From a bacterium BMS3Abin04 (lineage in GTDB: Bacteria; Bacteroidota; Ignavibacteria; Ignavibacteriales; Melioribacteraceae), in assembly GCA_002898175.1 (NCBI GenBank), contig BDSW01000047.1, positions 1-34,891 of the forward strand: a stretch of DNA of 34,891 nucleotides. The letters are read 5' to 3'. Under the pieces are notes generated by a model. It was not told the DNA's origin. It was given only the letters and a program-made list of their open reading frames with translations, and ran no database searches. Numbering within the stretch: position 1 is the first letter of the stretch; each line of letters begins with the position of its first letter. The position numbers and the translations under genes were made by a program. This document shows positions 23,279 through 34,891 of this stretch, piece after piece.

Positions 23279-24778
23279 TTATTCCGGTAAATTTAGTTTT
23301 TGTTTTAAATTGTTTATTAGAGATTGTAAGTATTCCTTTTTGTAATAATCATTTTCATTCTCCGCTTTCAGCAGATATTTTACGGCTTCTTTATCATTTC
23401 CTGTTAGCCAATATGCTTTTGCTTTTAAATATAAAGCATAGGGAAGTATCCATTTATCAAAATTATAATTTACGGATATTGCTCTGGAAGCAAAATTAAA
23501 TGCACTATTATAGTTCCCAAGTTCGATATTTGATTCAGCTAAATAAATTAAAACTTTACCTTTCCAATCCGGTTGTTTAATTCTGTGCAAAACCGGATTT
23601 AATATTTTTGCAACATCTTTATATTCTCCTGCTAACAAATAATTTCCGGCTTGAATAACCGTTAACTGATTTTTATTCAGATCATACTCAAATAATATTT
23701 CGCTATACTCTTTCGCATAGCTATCTTCAGGAATATCTTTGTTCCCATTCCTTGCTAAAAGCAAATATTTTTCATACAGTTTTTCATTATTTAAGAATTT
23801 ATAACATAGCGCAACTCTTAAACCGGCAATCCCGGTATAATCCACAGCCTTAGTTGTAGTCAGGAATTTTATATAGTTCTCAATTGCTTCATTAAAATTA
23901 TTTTTTCTTAATTGAACATCACCTAATAAAAAATACGAGAATGAGTTTGTTTGACTAAAATTTTTATTATTTAAGTTTATAACTTTATAAAGTTCCTTTT
24001 CAGCCAAATCCAATTTCCGTTGGTAAATTAAAGTAATTGCGTACTGGTAAATAAATAAACTATTTCGAGGGAATTTTTTAATTAACGAATTTAATAAAAT
24101 TGCAGAGCTATCATATTCCGCTAAATAATCCGTATACATTCTTGCAAGATGAAAAGTAGCTTCTGTCTTAAATAAACTTCCCTTTTGCTTTGCCAGTCTT
24201 ACATTATTAAAACCTTGCAGTTTGTCTGCATCCAAGCCTGTTAGAGTTAACGCAAACTTAAAAATACCTGGAACATAAGTTAGAGCATAATCAAAAATAC
24301 CAATTCCTAAATATGCATCATAAAAATCCGGCTTTTCATCTATAACGTCTTCTAGATATCCAATTGCTTTTTTAGCTGCCCAGAAAGCATCCAGCATTTT
24401 ATCCTTTGATGAATACGCTAAAGCTCTCTGTGTATAGATGTTTCCCTTCCAAAAATCAGCTAAGTAATCTTTACCATCAATTTTTTCAATACTTTCAATT
24501 TTGTTTTTTGCAATGTCTGAAAACTTAAAAAACTGCTTATATTCATGCTCTTCTTTAGAACCCAAAAAAGACCATAGATGAATTTGCGCAATGTAATAAT
24601 AACTTCGGGGATCGTCGGGTGAAATTTTTGCAGCTTCATTAAAAATATCCGAAGCTTTTTTCAGTTCCAAATTGTAAAGGTAAGGTATCCCCTGAGCAAT
24701 CTTTTGATGAAATAACGGATTTGAGCACACTTGCCCGGAAATAACGAAAATAATTAAAATTATTTTCTTAAGACTCAT
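23279..24778 (-). CDS. Secreted TPR-repeat protein
   Basis: N-terminal signal-like hydrophobic segment and repeated TPR-like helices ([39 protein letters not shown]). Confidence 0.75.
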
Positions 24779-26630: not shown

Positions 26631-29600
26631 TCAGCCTTCCAGCTTTTTAACTAACCCCGAATATTTCCTTTCAATTTTAAAACCGAATTTGTAAAAATAT
26701 TCCGGTCTAAAGAACCCGGTTGTTACAAATTTAATCTTTTCATCTCTTAACCTATTGAAAAACTCGTTCATCAATCCATCGCTTATTCCTTTTCTTCTAT
26801 AAGGATCTGCAACAACAATTTTTTCCATGTGAACGGTTTTTTTATCCGTTTGAATGTAAAACAAGCCTCCAATAATATATTCACGTTCAGAAAGTGCAAC
26901 AAGAAATTGATGTTCAGGTCTGAAATGAACCTGCAAATTAGCCGCTAAAAACAAATTATGCAGACGTGCAATTTCTTTAGGCGAAATGGGATTACGGAAA
27001 AGGAATATATTACCCTCATGGTCTTCAAATTGTACCGCGAGGTTTGCTGCATACGCACCTGCTCCCCTTATTTTAAGCAGTTCGGCAGAATCAGTTGGTT
27101 TTAAGTGGGGGTAACTTAATCTGGTCAGGAAATAACTTTCTTTTTTATTTAAACTAAATTCAGTCTGAATTTTTGAAATATAAGAGAGCAATTTTTCCTG
27201 TGAAATTTTTTCCGAGTGTTGTTTTTTAACTAAATCAAGCAATACTATCTTTAAGGATTCTACCGAATCAGCGAAACAAGTCTCTAAGAAAAATCTTGTG
27301 CGTGTTTCAGGATAATATTCATTTAAGTCACTTAAATTATAAGTATCATAAAGTTCGGAAAGCATTTCAGCTTGAGCTTCAATTGCTGCATTATCATTTA
27401 GTTTAAACCAACGATGAAATCTTTTAATAGCAAAATACAACTGCTTGGGAATGTACCCTTTTTCTTTAATAGTCAATAAAAATAAATCTAATTTTTCTTG
27501 CACGTTATCCATTTCTTCCGGTACGCCGACAGATTCTAATTCAAGCTTAAATTGTTTTAATATTATTAATCCGTTTTTTTGCCCTTGAGCATTGATAACA
27601 CCGGAAAACACATAATTCCATATTGAATCCCTATGTAAAAACGGGTATTCATTTTCTGTATTGTGAATAAATTTAACGTGAAAGTTTCTGAAAAATTCTT
27701 TAAAATCAGTAAAATCAGATTTCTCCGTTAATGAAACAATTCTATTTCCCGACTGATAATCATGAAATGGAATAATGAAATTATCAATAGTAGAATTTTC
27801 AAGCTGCAATTTGCTCTCGGTAAGTTTCCAAAAGTTTACATAAGCTGCGGCTGCATTCCAAACAAAATACGGCCATAAATGATATAGCTTTCGTTTATTT
27901 GTTTCATCTTCCCTTCTTAATTCACGTTTAATTAACTTAGCAACCGTATCTCCCGGTAAATATTTTTGAGTCCACAAATCATATTCCTGCCAATACCCTC
28001 CGAAATCTTCAACCAACTCATTTACATAAAATTTAGTACCTGCAATTATTAACCATTTAATTTCTTGCTTAATTTCACTTTTAGGTAATTTTTTATTTAA
28101 TGTTAAAAGCAATTCAAACGCACCGTGCAAACGAGTTTGAATAGTTACTTTGAATGCAGCTTTTGTCTTAGTATTGGAAACTTGGCTCACCCAAATTCCC
28201 GAAGGTAAAATACTATCTAAATGAATTAAAACGCCTTTTGTAAACAAGAATATAGTTTCTCTTAAAATTGCAGTTTCTGAAATACCTTTAATAATTCTAT
28301 CCTTTAAGATTTCGTCAACGCCTTCTTCAACAATAATTACATCTTTCCATTGATATTCTTCACCCGTTTCAACATCTACGGCAACCGATTCATTTTTACC
28401 AAGCCAAGTTCTAAAACCTTTTCTTAATTTTTTTCTTGCTGTCTCGGCTAAGACCGCTAATTCATAATTCTCTTTCCAAACTTGTAGGCGAGCCAGCATT
28501 TGCCTTACTTCACTGTATCTTGTAGGATGACGTATACCATACTTAGCTAACAAGTTTAACATCACCGGTATTGAAGTTTTCTTGATATCTTCTTCTTTAT
28601 GAGATTTAATTTCACTCATTAAAATATCTTCAATCTCATGTAATTCTTCTTTCCCGGAGCTTCCTTCAATTATATAGTAACTCAAATCTTCGTTTAAAAA
28701 ATCAGGATTACTATTAAGGTATGTTCTAAATAAACCGTAAAAAGCATTTAATGTTATTCTTGGTATTGCAGCTCTAAATAATTTTCGTCTTATATTCAAT
28801 GATTTTGTTAGAGATAAAAACGAGATGAAGTGTAATGCGGTTTTATAAATAGGAATTGTTTTATCGGATAATAAAAATCTAATATAATTCACTGCTTCTG
28901 AAGCCAGACCTTCATCATCTGATCTTAACAGCAAAAGTGCATAGTGTAATCCAATTAACGATGTTTCCTTACCGATTTCAATTTTTTGAAAGTGTTCCAA
29001 GATTTGGTTTGATATTGTTTCTTGGGATATAACATTTACAATTTCAATGTCCTTTTCAACACGACTCTGCCTGTGCCATTGAACAATTGTTTCGCCGGTA
29101 AACTCAAATAAGTTTTGATTTCCGCACCAATAAAGCGGGTTTGTAAGGAAGTCTTGTAAATCAATATGTTTATTATTGATTTTATATTCATAGTCACCGA
29201 TTCTATAAATATTTTCTTTCGGGTCAATTCTTTTAATAACTAATGAGCTATTGAGCTTAGGAATCTCTAACTTACCATTTACGGTATAAATATCACCGCT
29301 TAAACATCCTTTTTCCCGGAGGAACCAATTAGGTATCTTAATCTCTACGTTATCAATATAAACGGATGTATGATCTTTGATATACATTTCTTCCAACTGT
29401 TCGTGGAAGTTTTTTTCTATTACTCGGCGTTTATATGTCCCTTTGGGAGTCAATTCTCCTTTTTCTACCGAAAACGGTCTATTGATTATCCTGAAATTAA
29501 CTATCCTCTCAAAAGGAGCTAAAAATTTATTAACCGAAACAATTACCGAAGCAAAATAATCTTTAATTTCTTGATTGGACATGTTTTCTAGGATAGAGTT

Positions 29601-31439
29601 TTCCACTTCAAAGTTTGGGAAAATTAGAACAGTGTTAAACGGTCTATGATCTCCGGCTAGAAAGACTTGCTTCACATTCTCAAAATCCCGGAAGTAATTT
29701 TCTATTTTCTGCGGTGCAATAGTTTCTCCTTTTACGTTTTTATAAATTTCCTTTTTCCTGTCAATAATCTCAATAAAACCATTTTCATCCATTTTCATTA
29801 TGTCGCCGGTGGGTAACCATTCCCCATTAAGAAAAATATTATCTTTTCCGTAATAACCAATCATAACATAGTGCCCTTTAATGAGCAGTTCGCCGTCATC
29901 AGCTATTTTAATTTCCATTCCCGGAAGCGGTTTCCCAAGAGAATTAGGAATATACTTTCCCGGCGGCGTCATAGTTATTCCACCGGTAGCTTCGGTCATT
30001 CCGAAACCGCTCATTAATTCAATATTGTTTTTCTGAAAGAAAGCAAATACTTCAGCCGGAAGATACCCGGCAGCCGAAAGCCCCCATTTTAAATTTCCGC
30101 CGGTATTATTTTTAACGGTTTTTTTTATTAAATCTACATCATCCAATTCAAGGCTTACATGAGCGCCGATAAAATCATATAATTGTATCCACTTTTTAGG
30201 AATACTTATAAAAATTGTTGGTTTCACCAATTGCATATCAGCTATCATGGTTTCCAGCGCCGGGTTTTCCATAAAAGAATAACTCGCGCCCCAAAATACG
30301 CTGCCGGTCATTTCGAACCAGCGGCCAAAAGTATGGTACAATGGTAAGTATGCTAAAAAGCCATCATTGTCCCCGATCTTTGGAAGAGCCATAGCTCTAC
30401 AAAATCTTTTGTAAACTATATTCATGTTGGAAAACATTATACCTTTCGGTTCGCCTGTTGTACCGGAAGTATACATAACCGATGCTAATGAGTTTATGTC
30501 AATATCTCTATTTATTTTGTCAGTATTCAATTTTTGCTTGCTTAAAAATTCATCGAATGTTATCACCCACTCTTCGGCGCTGGAACCTTCCAGCAATATA
30601 ACTTGCTTAAGATGAATCAATTCTTGTTTAATAGATTTTATTTTTGACAACTGCTTCTCGTTAGAAACAAAAAGAAAAGGAGCTTCCGTTTGGTTTAGTA
30701 TAAAAGTAACGTGCTGAGAAACAGAGTTAGCGGGAATCATAATATTTACGATTCCGGAAGTTAAACAAGATAAATCAAGCATTGCCATATTAATACTATT
30801 TTCCATAAGGAAAGCTACTTTGAAATCCGCAATATTAAACTCCGACGCTAAACCGAACATGGATTGACTATATACATCAATTGTCTCATCTACTTCTTGC
30901 CAGCTATAACCTGAAACAGTTTTACCGGTTATTACATTAAAGAGTGTTTTGTTTCCATAAATTTTAACTCTTTGCTTAAATAGTTCTCTAAAGTTAAAGT
31001 TACTTCCATTTATCAAATTATAAATTAAGTCTTCCCATCTATTATCATCATAAATCTTTTTAAGGAATTGAGATAATCTGAACAAATTAAGATATTGATG
31101 AATAACTTTAGTGATGATATTCTTATTAATAACATCACTCCCCTTTAGCAGATTATAAAGAAAGTTACCTAAGTTAAAATATATGTCTGGATTTATTTTC
31201 TCCATCATACCGTAAGCAAGCTGTGCCGGGATTGATGAAGCAAGAATTTCTTTAAATTCAGTTAACGCTTCGTCTTTTTTAAGCATATCAATTTCCACTG
31301 CCTCTTTAACAAAAGACTCAAACATCTCATTAACAACTTGGAGCTGTTTTCCATCCAGCGCAGATTTTCCTGAAAGGATTGTATTCTTCAAAGTACTTAA
31401 TTTGGTCTTTAACTCCGCTGCATTCTGGTTTACCGACAT
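26631..31439 (-). CDS. 1602-aa fusion: AMP-forming acyl ligase, long uncharacterised middle region, C-terminal GNAT acetyltransferase
   Basis: Ligase motifs SVMYTSGTTGEPKGIMFSN, GFGMTEATGGITM, WLPTGDIMKMDENGFIEIIDRKKEIYKNVKGETIAPQKIE, TPKGTYKRRV; C-terminal IVVADPYRRKGISDGLMNEFF (GNAT) and GFFRPEYFYKFGFK. Confidence 0.88.
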   Translation of the reverse strand: MSVNQNAAELKTKLSTLKNTILSGKSALDGKQLQVVNEMFESFVKEAVEIDMLKKDEALTEFKEILASSIPAQLAYGMMEKINPDIYFNLGNFLYNLLKGSDVINKNIITKVIHQYLNLFRLSQFLKKIYDDNRWEDLIYNLINGSNFNFRELFKQRVKIYGNKTLFNVITGKTVSGYSWQEVDETIDVYSQSMFGLASEFNIADFKVAFLMENSINMAMLDLSCLTSGIVNIMIPANSVSQHVTFILNQTEAPFLFVSNEKQLSKIKSIKQELIHLKQVILLEGSSAEEWVITFDEFLSKQKLNTDKINRDIDINSLASVMYTSGTTGEPKGIMFSNMNIVYKRFCRAMALPKIGDNDGFLAYLPLYHTFGRWFEMTGSVFWGASYSFMENPALETMIADMQLVKPTIFISIPKKWIQLYDFIGAHVSLELDDVDLIKKTVKNNTGGNLKWGLSAAGYLPAEVFAFFQKNNIELMSGFGMTEATGGITMTPPGKYIPNSLGKPLPGMEIKIADDGELLIKGHYVMIGYYGKDNIFLNGEWLPTGDIMKMDENGFIEIIDRKKEIYKNVKGETIAPQKIENYFRDFENVKQVFLAGDHRPFNTVLIFPNFEVENSILENMSNQEIKDYFASVIVSVNKFLAPFERIVNFRIINRPFSVEKGELTPKGTYKRRVIEKNFHEQLEEMYIKDHTSVYIDNVEIKIPNWFLREKGCLSGDIYTVNGKLEIPKLNSSLVIKRIDPKENIYRIGDYEYKINNKHIDLQDFLTNPLYWCGNQNLFEFTGETIVQWHRQSRVEKDIEIVNVISQETISNQILEHFQKIEIGKETSLIGLHYALLLLRSDDEGLASEAVNYIRFLLSDKTIPIYKTALHFISFLSLTKSLNIRRKLFRAAIPRITLNAFYGLFRTYLNSNPDFLNEDLSYYIIEGSSGKEELHEIEDILMSEIKSHKEEDIKKTSIPVMLNLLAKYGIRHPTRYSEVRQMLARLQVWKENYELAVLAETARKKLRKGFRTWLGKNESVAVDVETGEEYQWKDVIIVEEGVDEILKDRIIKGISETAILRETIFLFTKGVLIHLDSILPSGIWVSQVSNTKTKAAFKVTIQTRLHGAFELLLTLNKKLPKSEIKQEIKWLIIAGTKFYVNELVEDFGGYWQEYDLWTQKYLPGDTVAKLIKRELRREDETNKRKLYHLWPYFVWNAAAAYVNFWKLTESKLQLENSTIDNFIIPFHDYQSGNRIVSLTEKSDFTDFKEFFRNFHVKFIHNTENEYPFLHRDSIWNYVFSGVINAQGQKNGLIILKQFKLELESVGVPEEMDNVQEKLDLFLLTIKEKGYIPKQLYFAIKRFHRWFKLNDNAAIEAQAEMLSELYDTYNLSDLNEYYPETRTRFFLETCFADSVESLKIVLLDLVKKQHSEKISQEKLLSYISKIQTEFSLNKKESYFLTRLSYPHLKPTDSAELLKIRGAGAYAANLAVQFEDHEGNIFLFRNPISPKEIARLHNLFLAANLQVHFRPEHQFLVALSEREYIIGGLFYIQTDKKTVHMEKIVVADPYRRKGISDGLMNEFFNRLRDEKIKFVTTGFFRPEYFYKFGFKIERKYSGLVKKLEG

Positions 31440-31526: not shown

Positions 31527-31549
31527 AAAAGGGGCATAAAGCCCCTTTT
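31527..31549 (-). terminator. Rho-independent terminator for the citrate synthase gene
   Basis: Stem AAAAGGGGC / GCCCCTTTT (perfect 9 bp, loop ATAAA); on the minus strand it is followed by TTATTTTAC. Confidence 0.9.
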
Positions 31550-31570: not shown

Positions 31571-32896
31571 TTATTCGTGACTAGGAATAGGTTCTGTTAT
31601 TCCGGCAATCTCTTCCAACATTGCTGTTGTTAATGATTTTGGTCTTTCAATTGAATAACCAAGACCTCTATCCCAAATAATATTTGCACAAACACCTAAG
31701 GCTCTGCCGACACCGAACAGAACGGTATAGAAATCATACTCGGTTAATCCGTAATGCCATTGAATTACACCTGATTGTGCATCAACATTAGGCCATGGGT
31801 TTTTAGCTTTTCCATGCTGTTGAAGAATTGGCGGAACAACCTTGTAAAGAATATTAACATATTCAAAAATCGGATCGTTTGGTAAATGTTTCAAGCAGAA
31901 TTCTCTTTGTGCTTGGTATCTCGGATCGGTTTTTCGAAGAACTGCATGCCCATAACCAGGAATAACTTGACCGGAGTTTAGTGTATCCCAAACAAACTTC
32001 TTCATTTCTTCTTCAGTCGGAACTTTGCCGCCCATTTTATCCATTACACCCTGGATCCATCTTAATACTTCTTGATTTGCCAAACCGTGCAGCGGACCGG
32101 CTAAACCATCTAACATAGCAGAAATTGCGTAATAAGTATCGGATAATGCACTTGCAACCAAGTGACCGGTATGAGCGCTAACATTTCCGCTTTCGTGATC
32201 GCTATGGAGAATAAAATATAACCTTGCAACATCATCATAAGGTTTATCGATTCCCATCATATGAGCGAAATTACCGCCTAAATCAAGATCAGGATCCGGA
32301 GCAATAATATCTCCGTCTTTATATTTTAGTCTATAAATAAATGCAGCAATTTGAGGAAGTTTTGCTAATAAGTTCATAGCATCTTCATAAGTAGGATCCC
32401 AATAATCGTATTTACTCATACCTTCATTATATCTTTTAACAAACTCAGATTCCTTTTCCATTGTAACAACAGCAGTTGAAAACATTGCCATTGGATGGGA
32501 ATCTTTAGGCATAGCCCTTAAAACATCAAACACGTATTCAGGTACAATTTTACGTTTGTTAAACTCTTCTGCAACCTCTTTTACTTCTTCATCGGTTGGA
32601 ATATCGCCGGTTAACAGCAGATAAAAGAAGCCTTCAACATAAGGCATTTCATGACCAGGTACTTTGGGTAATTTTTCAAGGACTTCCGGTATAGTATAAC
32701 CTCTAAACCTAATACCCTCATAGGGATCTAAATAAGAAATATCCGTTGTTAAAGCTTTAACACCGCGCATACCGCCAATTACTTGTGCTATTGTAACATC
32801 ACCAACTTTTGTGCTACCGTATTCTTTTGCTAATCTGACTGTTCTTGGTCGCCAGCCCTCAATTTTTTTATACAGCTTTTCTTTTAAAGTTGACAC
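31571..32896 (-). CDS. gltA: Citrate synthase, mitochondrial-like type
   Basis: IRGYTIPEVLEKLP-like region, HSDHESGNVSAHTGHLVASALSDTYYAISAMLDGLAGPLHGLANQE, GYGHAVLRKTDPRYQAQREF; GTG start with GGAGG upstream. Confidence 0.96.
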   Translation of the reverse strand: MSTLKEKLYKKIEGWRPRTVRLAKEYGSTKVGDVTIAQVIGGMRGVKALTTDISYLDPYEGIRFRGYTIPEVLEKLPKVPGHEMPYVEGFFYLLLTGDIPTDEEVKEVAEEFNKRKIVPEYVFDVLRAMPKDSHPMAMFSTAVVTMEKESEFVKRYNEGMSKYDYWDPTYEDAMNLLAKLPQIAAFIYRLKYKDGDIIAPDPDLDLGGNFAHMMGIDKPYDDVARLYFILHSDHESGNVSAHTGHLVASALSDTYYAISAMLDGLAGPLHGLANQEVLRWIQGVMDKMGGKVPTEEEMKKFVWDTLNSGQVIPGYGHAVLRKTDPRYQAQREFCLKHLPNDPIFEYVNILYKVVPPILQQHGKAKNPWPNVDAQSGVIQWHYGLTEYDFYTVLFGVGRALGVCANIIWDRGLGYSIERPKSLTTAMLEEIAGITEPIPSHE

Positions 32897-33131
32897 AACA
32901 ACCTCCTATAAATTAGTGAATTTTGATTGAATATATTTAATGGAAAAAACTCTGTGGAATTAAAATGAATATAACTAAAAATTTTAAGTGGAATCGGCTC
33001 TTCCATCTTTAATTTTTATTTGAGTGTATAAAATATTGTGCTCTAAAACTTATAATAAGAGCTTTATAACCGAAATATAATGCTAATATTTTAATTATCA
33101 TAGAACTTGGTTAAAAAAAGTTATATTTATC

Positions 33132-34424
33132 TTATTTTTTTTCTGAAATTATATATTCCGCAGCTTTCGTACCGCTTTTTACTGCCGATTCAATTGTGGA
33201 GGGTAAACCGGTATTGGTCCAGTCACCGGCTAAAATTAAATTTTTATAATTGGAAATAATTGCAGACTGATTTTTATCAAAGTAAATTGAAGGAATAAAA
33301 GTTGCTCTCTTTTCCTTTATTATCCTATACCCGGTCACCAAATCTTTGTTGAAAAATTGAAAATAATCCTCTAATTCTTCCAATAATAATTTCGACAAAT
33401 AACCGGAGCTATACTTCACAAATCTATCGGCATTGCTTATGACTAAAGTAATGAAAGTGTTATGATTAAAAACCCAATGCACTTTTGATTTAACTAGCCC
33501 GTAAAATTTTTCTTTAAATGGATTGTCTTTTAGCCAAATATGCATTGATAAAATTGAGGAGTATTGAAACATATTTTCATTTACATTATTTATTCCATTG
33601 TTAATAATTTTTTTTAGAGAAAAATGAGGAATTGCAGTAATTATGAATTTAAAATCTTCGAATAAGTTTTTATTTGTTTTTAAAGCAACAATTTTCCCTG
33701 CTTTTGTAATAAATTCTACCGCTTTTTCTTTTGTTGAAACAGAGCCTCCTTTTTCACAAATAAATTTCTCTGCTTGTGCACAATAAACGTTACTTAAATC
33801 GGTTTTGGGAATTATAAGAGTAGTGGATTTATTACCGCGGTAAAAAATAGTTTTCAGGATATCATAAAATATTGAAGCAGACGCATTTTTTATCGAATTA
33901 TTTAACGCTCCAACTGCTAAAATTTCCCATAAATAATCATTTATCTTCTCCGTTTGGCGGTTTTGTTTTAACCATTCATCTACCGTAAAATTTTTAATAT
34001 TTTCCCTGGAAATAAACAACAGCTTTATCATGAAAGTTATAAGACTAATTTTATCTTTCATGGTGAAAGGTTTGAATTGAAGGATTGCTATTAATAAATT
34101 AAGAGGATAAAAAATATTCGGCGCTTTTAAGACATGCTTTTTACCTCCTTTATTTACTAAAATAAGCTCAAGATTTTCCTGATAAAATAATTTATCCTCA
34201 GTCTTTATCAATTTTAAGAAATCTAAAGAATATTTATAACAGCCCATTAAAATATGCTGACCGTTATCTATAAGTTCATTATGGGTTTTATCTAGGAAAG
34301 AATAAGCCCTACCGCCTAATTTCGGGGAAGCTTCCATAAGGTGAACAGTGACACCTGAGTTAGCAAGATAAGCTGCAGCAGAGAGACCCGCAAAGCCGCC
34401 GCCGATAACAATACATTTAGACAT
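33132..34424 (-). CDS. hpnE: Squalene-associated FAD-dependent desaturase / phytoene-desaturase-like amine oxidase
   Basis: CIVIGGGFAGLSAAAYLANSGVTVHLMEASPKLGGRAYSF FAD motif, LAGDWTNTGLPSTIESAVKSG C-terminal motif; abuts a squalene/phytoene synthase gene. Confidence 0.85.
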   Translation of the reverse strand: MSKCIVIGGGFAGLSAAAYLANSGVTVHLMEASPKLGGRAYSFLDKTHNELIDNGQHILMGCYKYSLDFLKLIKTEDKLFYQENLELILVNKGGKKHVLKAPNIFYPLNLLIAILQFKPFTMKDKISLITFMIKLLFISRENIKNFTVDEWLKQNRQTEKINDYLWEILAVGALNNSIKNASASIFYDILKTIFYRGNKSTTLIIPKTDLSNVYCAQAEKFICEKGGSVSTKEKAVEFITKAGKIVALKTNKNLFEDFKFIITAIPHFSLKKIINNGINNVNENMFQYSSILSMHIWLKDNPFKEKFYGLVKSKVHWVFNHNTFITLVISNADRFVKYSSGYLSKLLLEELEDYFQFFNKDLVTGYRIIKEKRATFIPSIYFDKNQSAIISNYKNLILAGDWTNTGLPSTIESAVKSGTKAAEYIISEKK

Positions 34425-34891
34425 TTAATAAACTAATCTATATTTAAGCCAAACACCAACAGCTATAGCAACTTTATCAAATTTTGAGACGCTAATATTT
34501 TTTTCAAATACATTAAAATTCTTCGCTTGCATTTTTTTCAAAAGTCTATAATAAATATGCTGCATTGCTCTGGCAGCAAATAAAGCCGGTTTTTCTTTGT
34601 TGTCTAAACATGCATCGGCAGCTTTATAAAAATCTTCCGCTCGTTTTGCTTCAAACCGCATAAGCGACACAAAATTTTCATTATAAACATTATTAAATAA
34701 ATCCTGTTCGCTATAATTAAATCTTTCTAAATCTTCTTTAGGTAAATAAATCCTACCATGACTAGCATCAATTTTTACATCTCTTAAAATATTAGTAAGC
34801 TGCAATGCCATCCTAAGATGTATTGCATAATCTTTTGTAGACTCTTTTTTATACCCGAATATAGGAATACTCATGAGTCCGACCGTGGAAG
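34425..34891 (-). CDS. hpnD: Squalene/phytoene synthase (HpnD-like), C-terminal part; N-terminus beyond the right edge
   Basis: LRMALQLTNILRDVKIDASHGRIYLPKEDLERF; reading frame stays open upstream of the listed Met as STVGLMSIPIFGY. Confidence 0.85.
   Translation of the reverse strand, partial: STVGLMSIPIFGYKKESTKDYAIHLRMALQLTNILRDVKIDASHGRIYLPKEDLERFNYSEQDLFNNVYNENFVSLMRFEAKRAEDFYKAADACLDNKEKPALFAARAMQHIYYRLLKKMQAKNFNVFEKNISVSKFDKVAIAVGVWLKYRLVY

Follow-up and report, generated by a model that had tools for sequence, protein, structure and literature searches.

A conserved bacterial protein that joins an acyl-CoA ligase–like domain, a predicted pseudokinase, and a GCN5-like GNAT domain in one chain

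The window considered here is the whole 34,891-nucleotide stretch of DNA that was analyzed, from BMS3Abin04 (Bacteroidota; Ignavibacteria; Melioribacteraceae; assembly GCA_002898175.1, contig BDSW01000047.1, positions 1–34,891, forward strand). On its minus strand, a gene with an ATG start at 26631..31439 encodes a 1602-residue protein with a ligase, a helical solenoid, a predicted pseudokinase, and a GNAT domain. The longest open frame among 50 shuffles of the window, which has 32% GC, was 166 codons. A frameshift or an assembly fusion is ruled out because 41 full-length relatives (1513–1649 residues, from 64% down to 22% identical to the window protein) are colinear over the entire length; with the window protein, these make up the family set of 42 sequences used below. 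No segment of the 1602-residue protein is hydrophobic enough for a transmembrane helix (the highest Kyte-Doolittle mean over 19 residues is 1.46), and thus the protein is probably cytoplasmic.

In the main clade of the family, the gene is preceded by a run of hpnC/D, hpnE, and citrate synthase genes and followed by pyrG, a gene for a 499-residue protein, purN, purH, and mreB. Citrate synthase lies directly upstream in 15 loci and nearby in 20, with gaps of mostly ∼80–160 bp, whereas distant family members have other gene neighbors. A terminator-like hairpin with a T tail (31527..31549, minus strand) separates the citrate synthase gene from the fusion gene, which suggests that the latter is its own transcription unit. 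With this hairpin, the gaps, and the changed neighbors of distant members, an operon-based function was rejected, and conservation of the neighborhood looks like synteny that gives no functional link. The upstream genes in the window (31571–34889, minus strand) encode a eukaryote-type citrate synthase, an hpnE-like hydroxysqualene dehydroxylase, and a squalene synthase–like protein cut at the window end, and this trio is kept upstream of the fusion gene in many relatives. The 499-residue protein (23279–24778, minus strand) has no NCBIfam match, sits between pyrG and purN in 11 examined loci, and looks like a secreted repeat protein.

Within the sampled phylum, the family was found in a single class. 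When the middle region alone was used as query, it was found in 21 of 396 genomes sampled across the phylum, all of them in the class of the window, and no match outside that class was seen in this sample. A profile run against a sample of 391 genomes of the class matched 55 of them, and a peptide-pattern scan of genomes returned one close relative, from a Melioribacteraceae metagenome-assembled genome, at 51% identity. The taxonomic spread of the architecture had been proposed as a check at the outset; in the sampled phylum, it lies within this class, with 42 colinear full-length members read. A GNAT domain matching this gene is present in 32 of 57 genomes of the window's own family; as it is missing from several genomes that are 98–100% complete, the gene is, judging from genome content, dispensable. 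In the phylum and class searches, the middle region was found in open reading frames of similar length or in fragments, with no split or stand-alone version seen, and plasmid records matched the ligase part but not the middle region. Weak matches to GNATs of ∼490 residues in genomes that lack the gene were considered as a split version and rejected: they span only ∼65 residues at E ∼1e-5, and one genome carries both such a GNAT and the full gene, so these proteins were treated as generic GNATs.

The N terminus of the protein is an extension of 147 residues (30999..31439, minus strand). The ∼150-residue segment that the original prediction placed ahead of the ligase does exist, but conservation is low over its first ∼100 residues, parts of which distant members lack, and only residues ∼105–147 are moderately conserved in the family alignment.

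The ligase (residues ∼150–690) resembles long-chain acyl-CoA synthetases. It comprises an AMP-binding domain of this type (residues 173–530; 29850..30923, minus strand; Pfam PF00501, E 1.2e-54) and an AMP-binding C-terminal domain, AMP-binding_C_3 (residues 569–688; 29376..29735, minus strand; PF23562, E 2.3e-13), the two-subdomain ANL fold and core motifs that it has in common with long-chain acyl-CoA synthetases and the adenylation domains of carboxylic acid reductases. One of the latter is its best solved relative by sequence (E 3e-25). A long-chain ligase model of NCBIfam also matches the window protein (E 9e-57), but none of the best 25 NCBIfam models reaches its cut-off (best 192 bits against a required 476). 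The ANL core motifs A3 (the P-loop), A5, A7, and A8 are kept in all 42 sequences, as are Thr324, Gly326, Lys332, Glu483, Asp546, and Arg561, and the ligase is the slowest-evolving and best-conserved domain of the protein. The combination of invariant core residues with the highest conservation argues that the ligase domain is catalytic.

The A10 motif departs from this pattern. In the window protein, it takes the displaced form TPKGT (residues 664–668; 29436..29450, minus strand), and in the family alignment, the position of the canonical lysine, Thr668, is threonine in 32 and serine in 10 of the 42 sequences and never lysine. A lysine two residues upstream, Lys666, is invariant (42/42). In an ungapped alignment, a long-chain ligase encoded elsewhere in the source genome reads GELTPTLKLKRRVLLKKY where the window protein reads GELTPKGTYKRRVIEKNF. 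Eight of nine stand-alone relatives checked keep the canonical lysine, as in GELTPSLKIKR, EELTPTMKLKR, GELTPSLKLRR, EELTPTAKLKR, DELTPTMKIKR, GERTANGKVRR, and GVMTATRKKRR, all from other bacteria; GELTPTLKLKR is a further example of the stand-alone motif. In a plasmid-borne ligase of Pseudoalteromonas sp. NC201 (L107, 738245–738886), the motif is TANGRPKR, with arginine in place of the canonical lysine. Some fungal adenylate-forming reductases have a similar PKGT motif; a literature search for it in those enzymes found no paper. In published work, the canonical A10 lysine is regarded as invariant, as required for adenylation, and as the site of acetylation by GNATs (PMC4053389, PMC8556138). 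Because this lysine is displaced here, the adenylation domain departs in part from the canonical form, and the complete FadD-like domain that had been predicted stands in its fold and core motifs but not in its completeness. Compared with long-chain acyl-CoA synthetases, the protein differs in this threonine or serine, in the lysine two residues upstream, and in a C-terminal extension of ∼900 residues.

The displaced lysine raises the question of whether the ligase-like domain makes anything. It could instead have lost its synthetase function and detect fatty acid, acyl-AMP, or acyl-CoA, switching the GNAT on or off in response, as would fit a canonical lysine lost from all 42 fusion proteins and kept by most stand-alone relatives. 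Precedent exists in the type I and II Pat acetyltransferases, which are regulated by inactive NDP-forming acyl-CoA synthetase domains (PMC8556138). We nevertheless consider a sensor unlikely. The remaining ANL motifs do not vary and no domain of the protein evolves more slowly than the ligase, a constraint beyond what a relic that only binds a ligand would require, and the family also holds an invariant lysine two residues upstream of the A10 position.

Between ligase and GNAT, the original prediction had found no nameable motif, and sequence searches bear this out: for residues 700–1450, Pfam returned no family even at a threshold of E ≤ 10, and a sequence search of the PDB gave no significant match. 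An AlphaFold2 model of residues 690–1602, built with 22 family sequences (pLDDT 88.4, pTM 0.76), places a β domain (691–760), a helical solenoid (811–1013), a two-lobed kinase-like fold, and the GNAT domain (from 1451) in that order. The small β domain (29160..29369, minus strand) has conserved Pro703, Trp705, Gly748, and Tyr752 in the alignments. The solenoid (28401..29009, minus strand; pLDDT ∼90) is the least conserved region; mean pairwise identity over the 42 sequences is 22% for the solenoid, 31% for the kinase-like domain, 42% for the GNAT, and 49% for the ligase. The possibility that the middle is a known domain set with an assigned function is thus only half borne out, since the folds are known but an assigned function is not attached to them.

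When the C-terminal 913 residues were compared with the PDB using Foldseek, Vps34 and other PI3Ks came first, aligned over ∼600 columns (E 1.2e-5). As in the helical-plus-kinase module of these enzymes, a solenoid precedes a kinase, but the TM-score is 0.29 with 10% identity and a large rmsd, and the catalytic residues are missing here. At such a TM-score and rmsd, the likeness is one of the order of parts only. A PI3K relationship was not upheld in a search with the kinase domain alone, which gave no PI3K among its best 50 Foldseek matches, and nothing found here supports shared descent of the two.

The fold of residues ∼1043–1370 (27330..28313, minus strand) is predicted to be protein kinase–like. 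A separate AlphaFold2 model of residues 1030–1448, built with 42 sequences (pLDDT 90.3, pTM 0.85), matches almost exclusively protein kinases among its best 50 Foldseek hits in the PDB, including JAK1, PsiK, FGFR2, RET, KIT, and LIMK1 (best E 4.5e-5; 158 matches at E ≤ 0.001), with TM-scores that are low, mostly 0.27–0.46 on the target. It is because this region alone matches such kinases that we assign it to the protein kinase-like fold and not to the PI3Ks. In the model, strands β1 (1077–1089), β2 (1093–1102), and β3 (1107–1115) are followed by helix αC (1120–1134), strands β4 (1146–1150) and β5 (1155–1159), helices αD and αE (up to 1206), and a catalytic loop (1214–1220). An earlier, speculative resemblance to a kinase N-lobe is therefore upheld at the level of fold, but the limit to one lobe is not, as the likeness covers both.

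Read in a residue frame that follows the order of secondary structure in the predicted model, the domain lacks conserved catalytic residues of kinases. No sequence has a lysine at β3 positions 1107–1114 (0/42), and the glycine-rich loop is absent. The catalytic loop is degenerate (27780..27800, minus strand): the position of the catalytic aspartate, 1215, is Asn, Asp, Ala, Ser, or Glu, with aspartate in 12 of 42. The inferred DFG aspartate, after β8, is Ser1236 (27732..27734, minus strand; serine in 40 sequences and threonine in two). With the β3 lysine and DFG aspartate gone and the catalytic aspartate position variable, the domain is predicted to be a pseudokinase. If it were active but atypical, as SelO-like and other divergent kinases are, the protein would be a machine of three enzymes. 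The full kinase fold would allow this, as would the asparagine kept at the catalytic-loop position 1220 (38/42) and the acidic Asp1227 of the β7–β8 hairpin (34/42), but the β3 lysine is not conserved, the inferred DFG position is never acidic, the catalytic aspartate position varies, and the glycine-rich loop is missing, and we find activity very improbable.

The C-terminal GNAT domain (residues 1451–1600; 26640..27089, minus strand) was identified by Pfam, by a profile against the PDB, and by Foldseek. Acetyltransf_1 matches residues 1505–1587 above its curated cut-off (E 4.3e-6). A profile of 26 family GNATs has the GCN5 histone acetyltransferase as its best solved relative (E 1e-10; the next that is not GCN5 is at 2.4e-5), and Foldseek matches include GCN5, the cAMP-binding acyltransferase of Mycobacterium smegmatis (4oll), and Escherichia coli PatZ. 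Motif A reads RRKGIS (residues 1548–1553; 26781..26798, minus strand), with Gly1551 in 42, Arg1548 in 40, and serine, glycine, or alanine at 1553 in 27, 11, and 4 of the 42 sequences, respectively. The R/Q-x-x-G-x-G/A form of the motif is thus present with a serine variant, R-x-x-G-x-S, here and across most of the main clade. As the pyrophosphate loop R-x-x-G-x-S/G/A is kept, the domain probably binds CoA, and a GNAT without an acyl-CoA site, which the original prediction had counted as a threat to itself, is not what the motif indicates. The position of the catalytic glutamate of GCN5 is variable (His, Tyr, Phe, or Glu, among others); two positions on, residue 1539 is glutamate, as in the window protein, or aspartate in 39 of 42. 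In two members (L049 and L050, group f11), motif A reads SLTNRGLG and ALSNRGLG, respectively, the loop arginine being lost while the remaining protein is kept.

What the GNAT may acylate can be weighed with the same comparisons. N-Acyl amide synthases occur within the GNAT superfamily, and the ligase could make an acyl-CoA that the GNAT passes to a small-molecule amine, yielding an N-acyl amide lipid or metabolite from one polypeptide. The two domains are conserved jointly on one chain, the ligase is of the long-chain acyl-CoA synthetase type, and such ligases are the best paralogous segments in the genome, all of which would suit an acyl-amide. Yet the GNAT profile is nearest to GCN5-type lysine acetyltransferases, no sequence feature indicates a small-molecule amine acceptor, the main-clade neighborhood contains neither a gene for amine biosynthesis nor one for an acyl carrier, and the scaffold of 750 residues would be left without a role. 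We therefore regard the acyl-amide product that was originally envisaged as rather unlikely; with GCN5 as best solved relative, acetylation of lysine is the activity suggested, in preference to synthesis of an acyl amide. The accompanying idea that no separate carrier is needed is unfounded, as a GNAT with this pyrophosphate loop still employs CoA as its carrier.

The ligase-to-GNAT fusion itself is secure, with Pfam matches at both ends and colinearity in all 42 members, and it is because of this colinearity that ligase, scaffold, and GNAT are taken to work together. Distances between domains correlate at 0.96 for ligase and GNAT and for ligase and kinase across the whole family and at 0.49–0.53 within the main clade; co-inheritance of the three domains is clear from these sequences, though shared phylogeny contributes. 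The combination of ligase, pseudokinase, and GNAT is thus real and conserved, and it is built from known folds. It is apparently undescribed, as had been supposed: no annotated precedent was found, and literature searches for the ligase-solenoid-pseudokinase-GNAT architecture found nothing relevant.

Two known systems offer comparisons. The bacterial GNAT protein lysine acetyltransferases of types I–V have an NDP-forming synthetase domain, a small regulatory domain, no additional domain, or tandem GNAT domains, in the available portion of PMC8556138. This group, with SePat/PatZ, MtPat, and RpKatA as examples, shares with the present protein a GCN5-type GNAT joined to a large regulatory partner, but an AMP-forming ligase with a solenoid and a pseudokinase is in none of the five types described in that portion. 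In SAGA, Tra1/TRRAP, a HEAT solenoid with a catalytically inactive kinase, serves Gcn5 (PMC5691046). Solenoid, dead kinase, and GCN5-type enzyme are alike in the two, but this is an analogy only, as SAGA is eukaryotic, consists of separate subunits, and has no ligase. The likeness is most simply read as convergence.

We tentatively propose, with somewhat less than even confidence, that in this probably soluble protein a noncatalytic scaffold couples an acyl-CoA ligase in cis to a lysine acyltransferase. The ligase would make acyl-AMP and acyl-CoA, with Lys666 taking over from the canonical A10 lysine. Neither solenoid nor pseudokinase would phosphorylate anything; they could hold the two enzymes together with a protein partner, or act as sensors of a nucleotide or an acyl ligand. 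The acceptor of the GNAT would then be a lysine of a protein, which may be the ligase in the same chain or a partner that the solenoid binds. Some bacterial GNAT lysine acetyltransferases act on AMP-forming CoA ligases (PMC4053389, PMC8556138), and self-acylation would be an in-cis version of this control. Counting against cis-regulation, the lysine usually acetylated in such ligases is threonine or serine here, so that Lys666 or another lysine would have to take its place. The serine-ended GNAT loop of the main clade, the variable catalytic glutamate position, and the two members without the loop arginine likewise count against a lysine acyltransferase. A broader reading, which we hold to be somewhat doubtful, is of an undescribed bacterial machine for acyl activation and transfer, in which the scaffold couples the displaced-lysine ligase to a GCN5-like lysine acyltransferase and fatty-acid supply is written onto lysines. 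If true, the cell's fatty-acid supply would be recorded directly on its proteins. A bacterial protein with all of these parts on one chain, conserved between families that are down to 22% identical, would also offer a simple in vitro system in which acyl supply is coupled to acylation, and the universally displaced A10 lysine is a sharp and cheap mutational handle on ANL chemistry.

The source genome carries two genes for SIR2-family deacetylases (sirtuins; G000:C291:5767-6285 and G000:C138:15461-15979). Their co-occurrence with the fusion gene was considered as support for reversible acetylation and set aside; since relatives without the fusion gene also carry sirtuins, their presence does not discriminate. 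Two SIR2-family genes are also found across the source genus, and a single copy is present in most relatives of the family.
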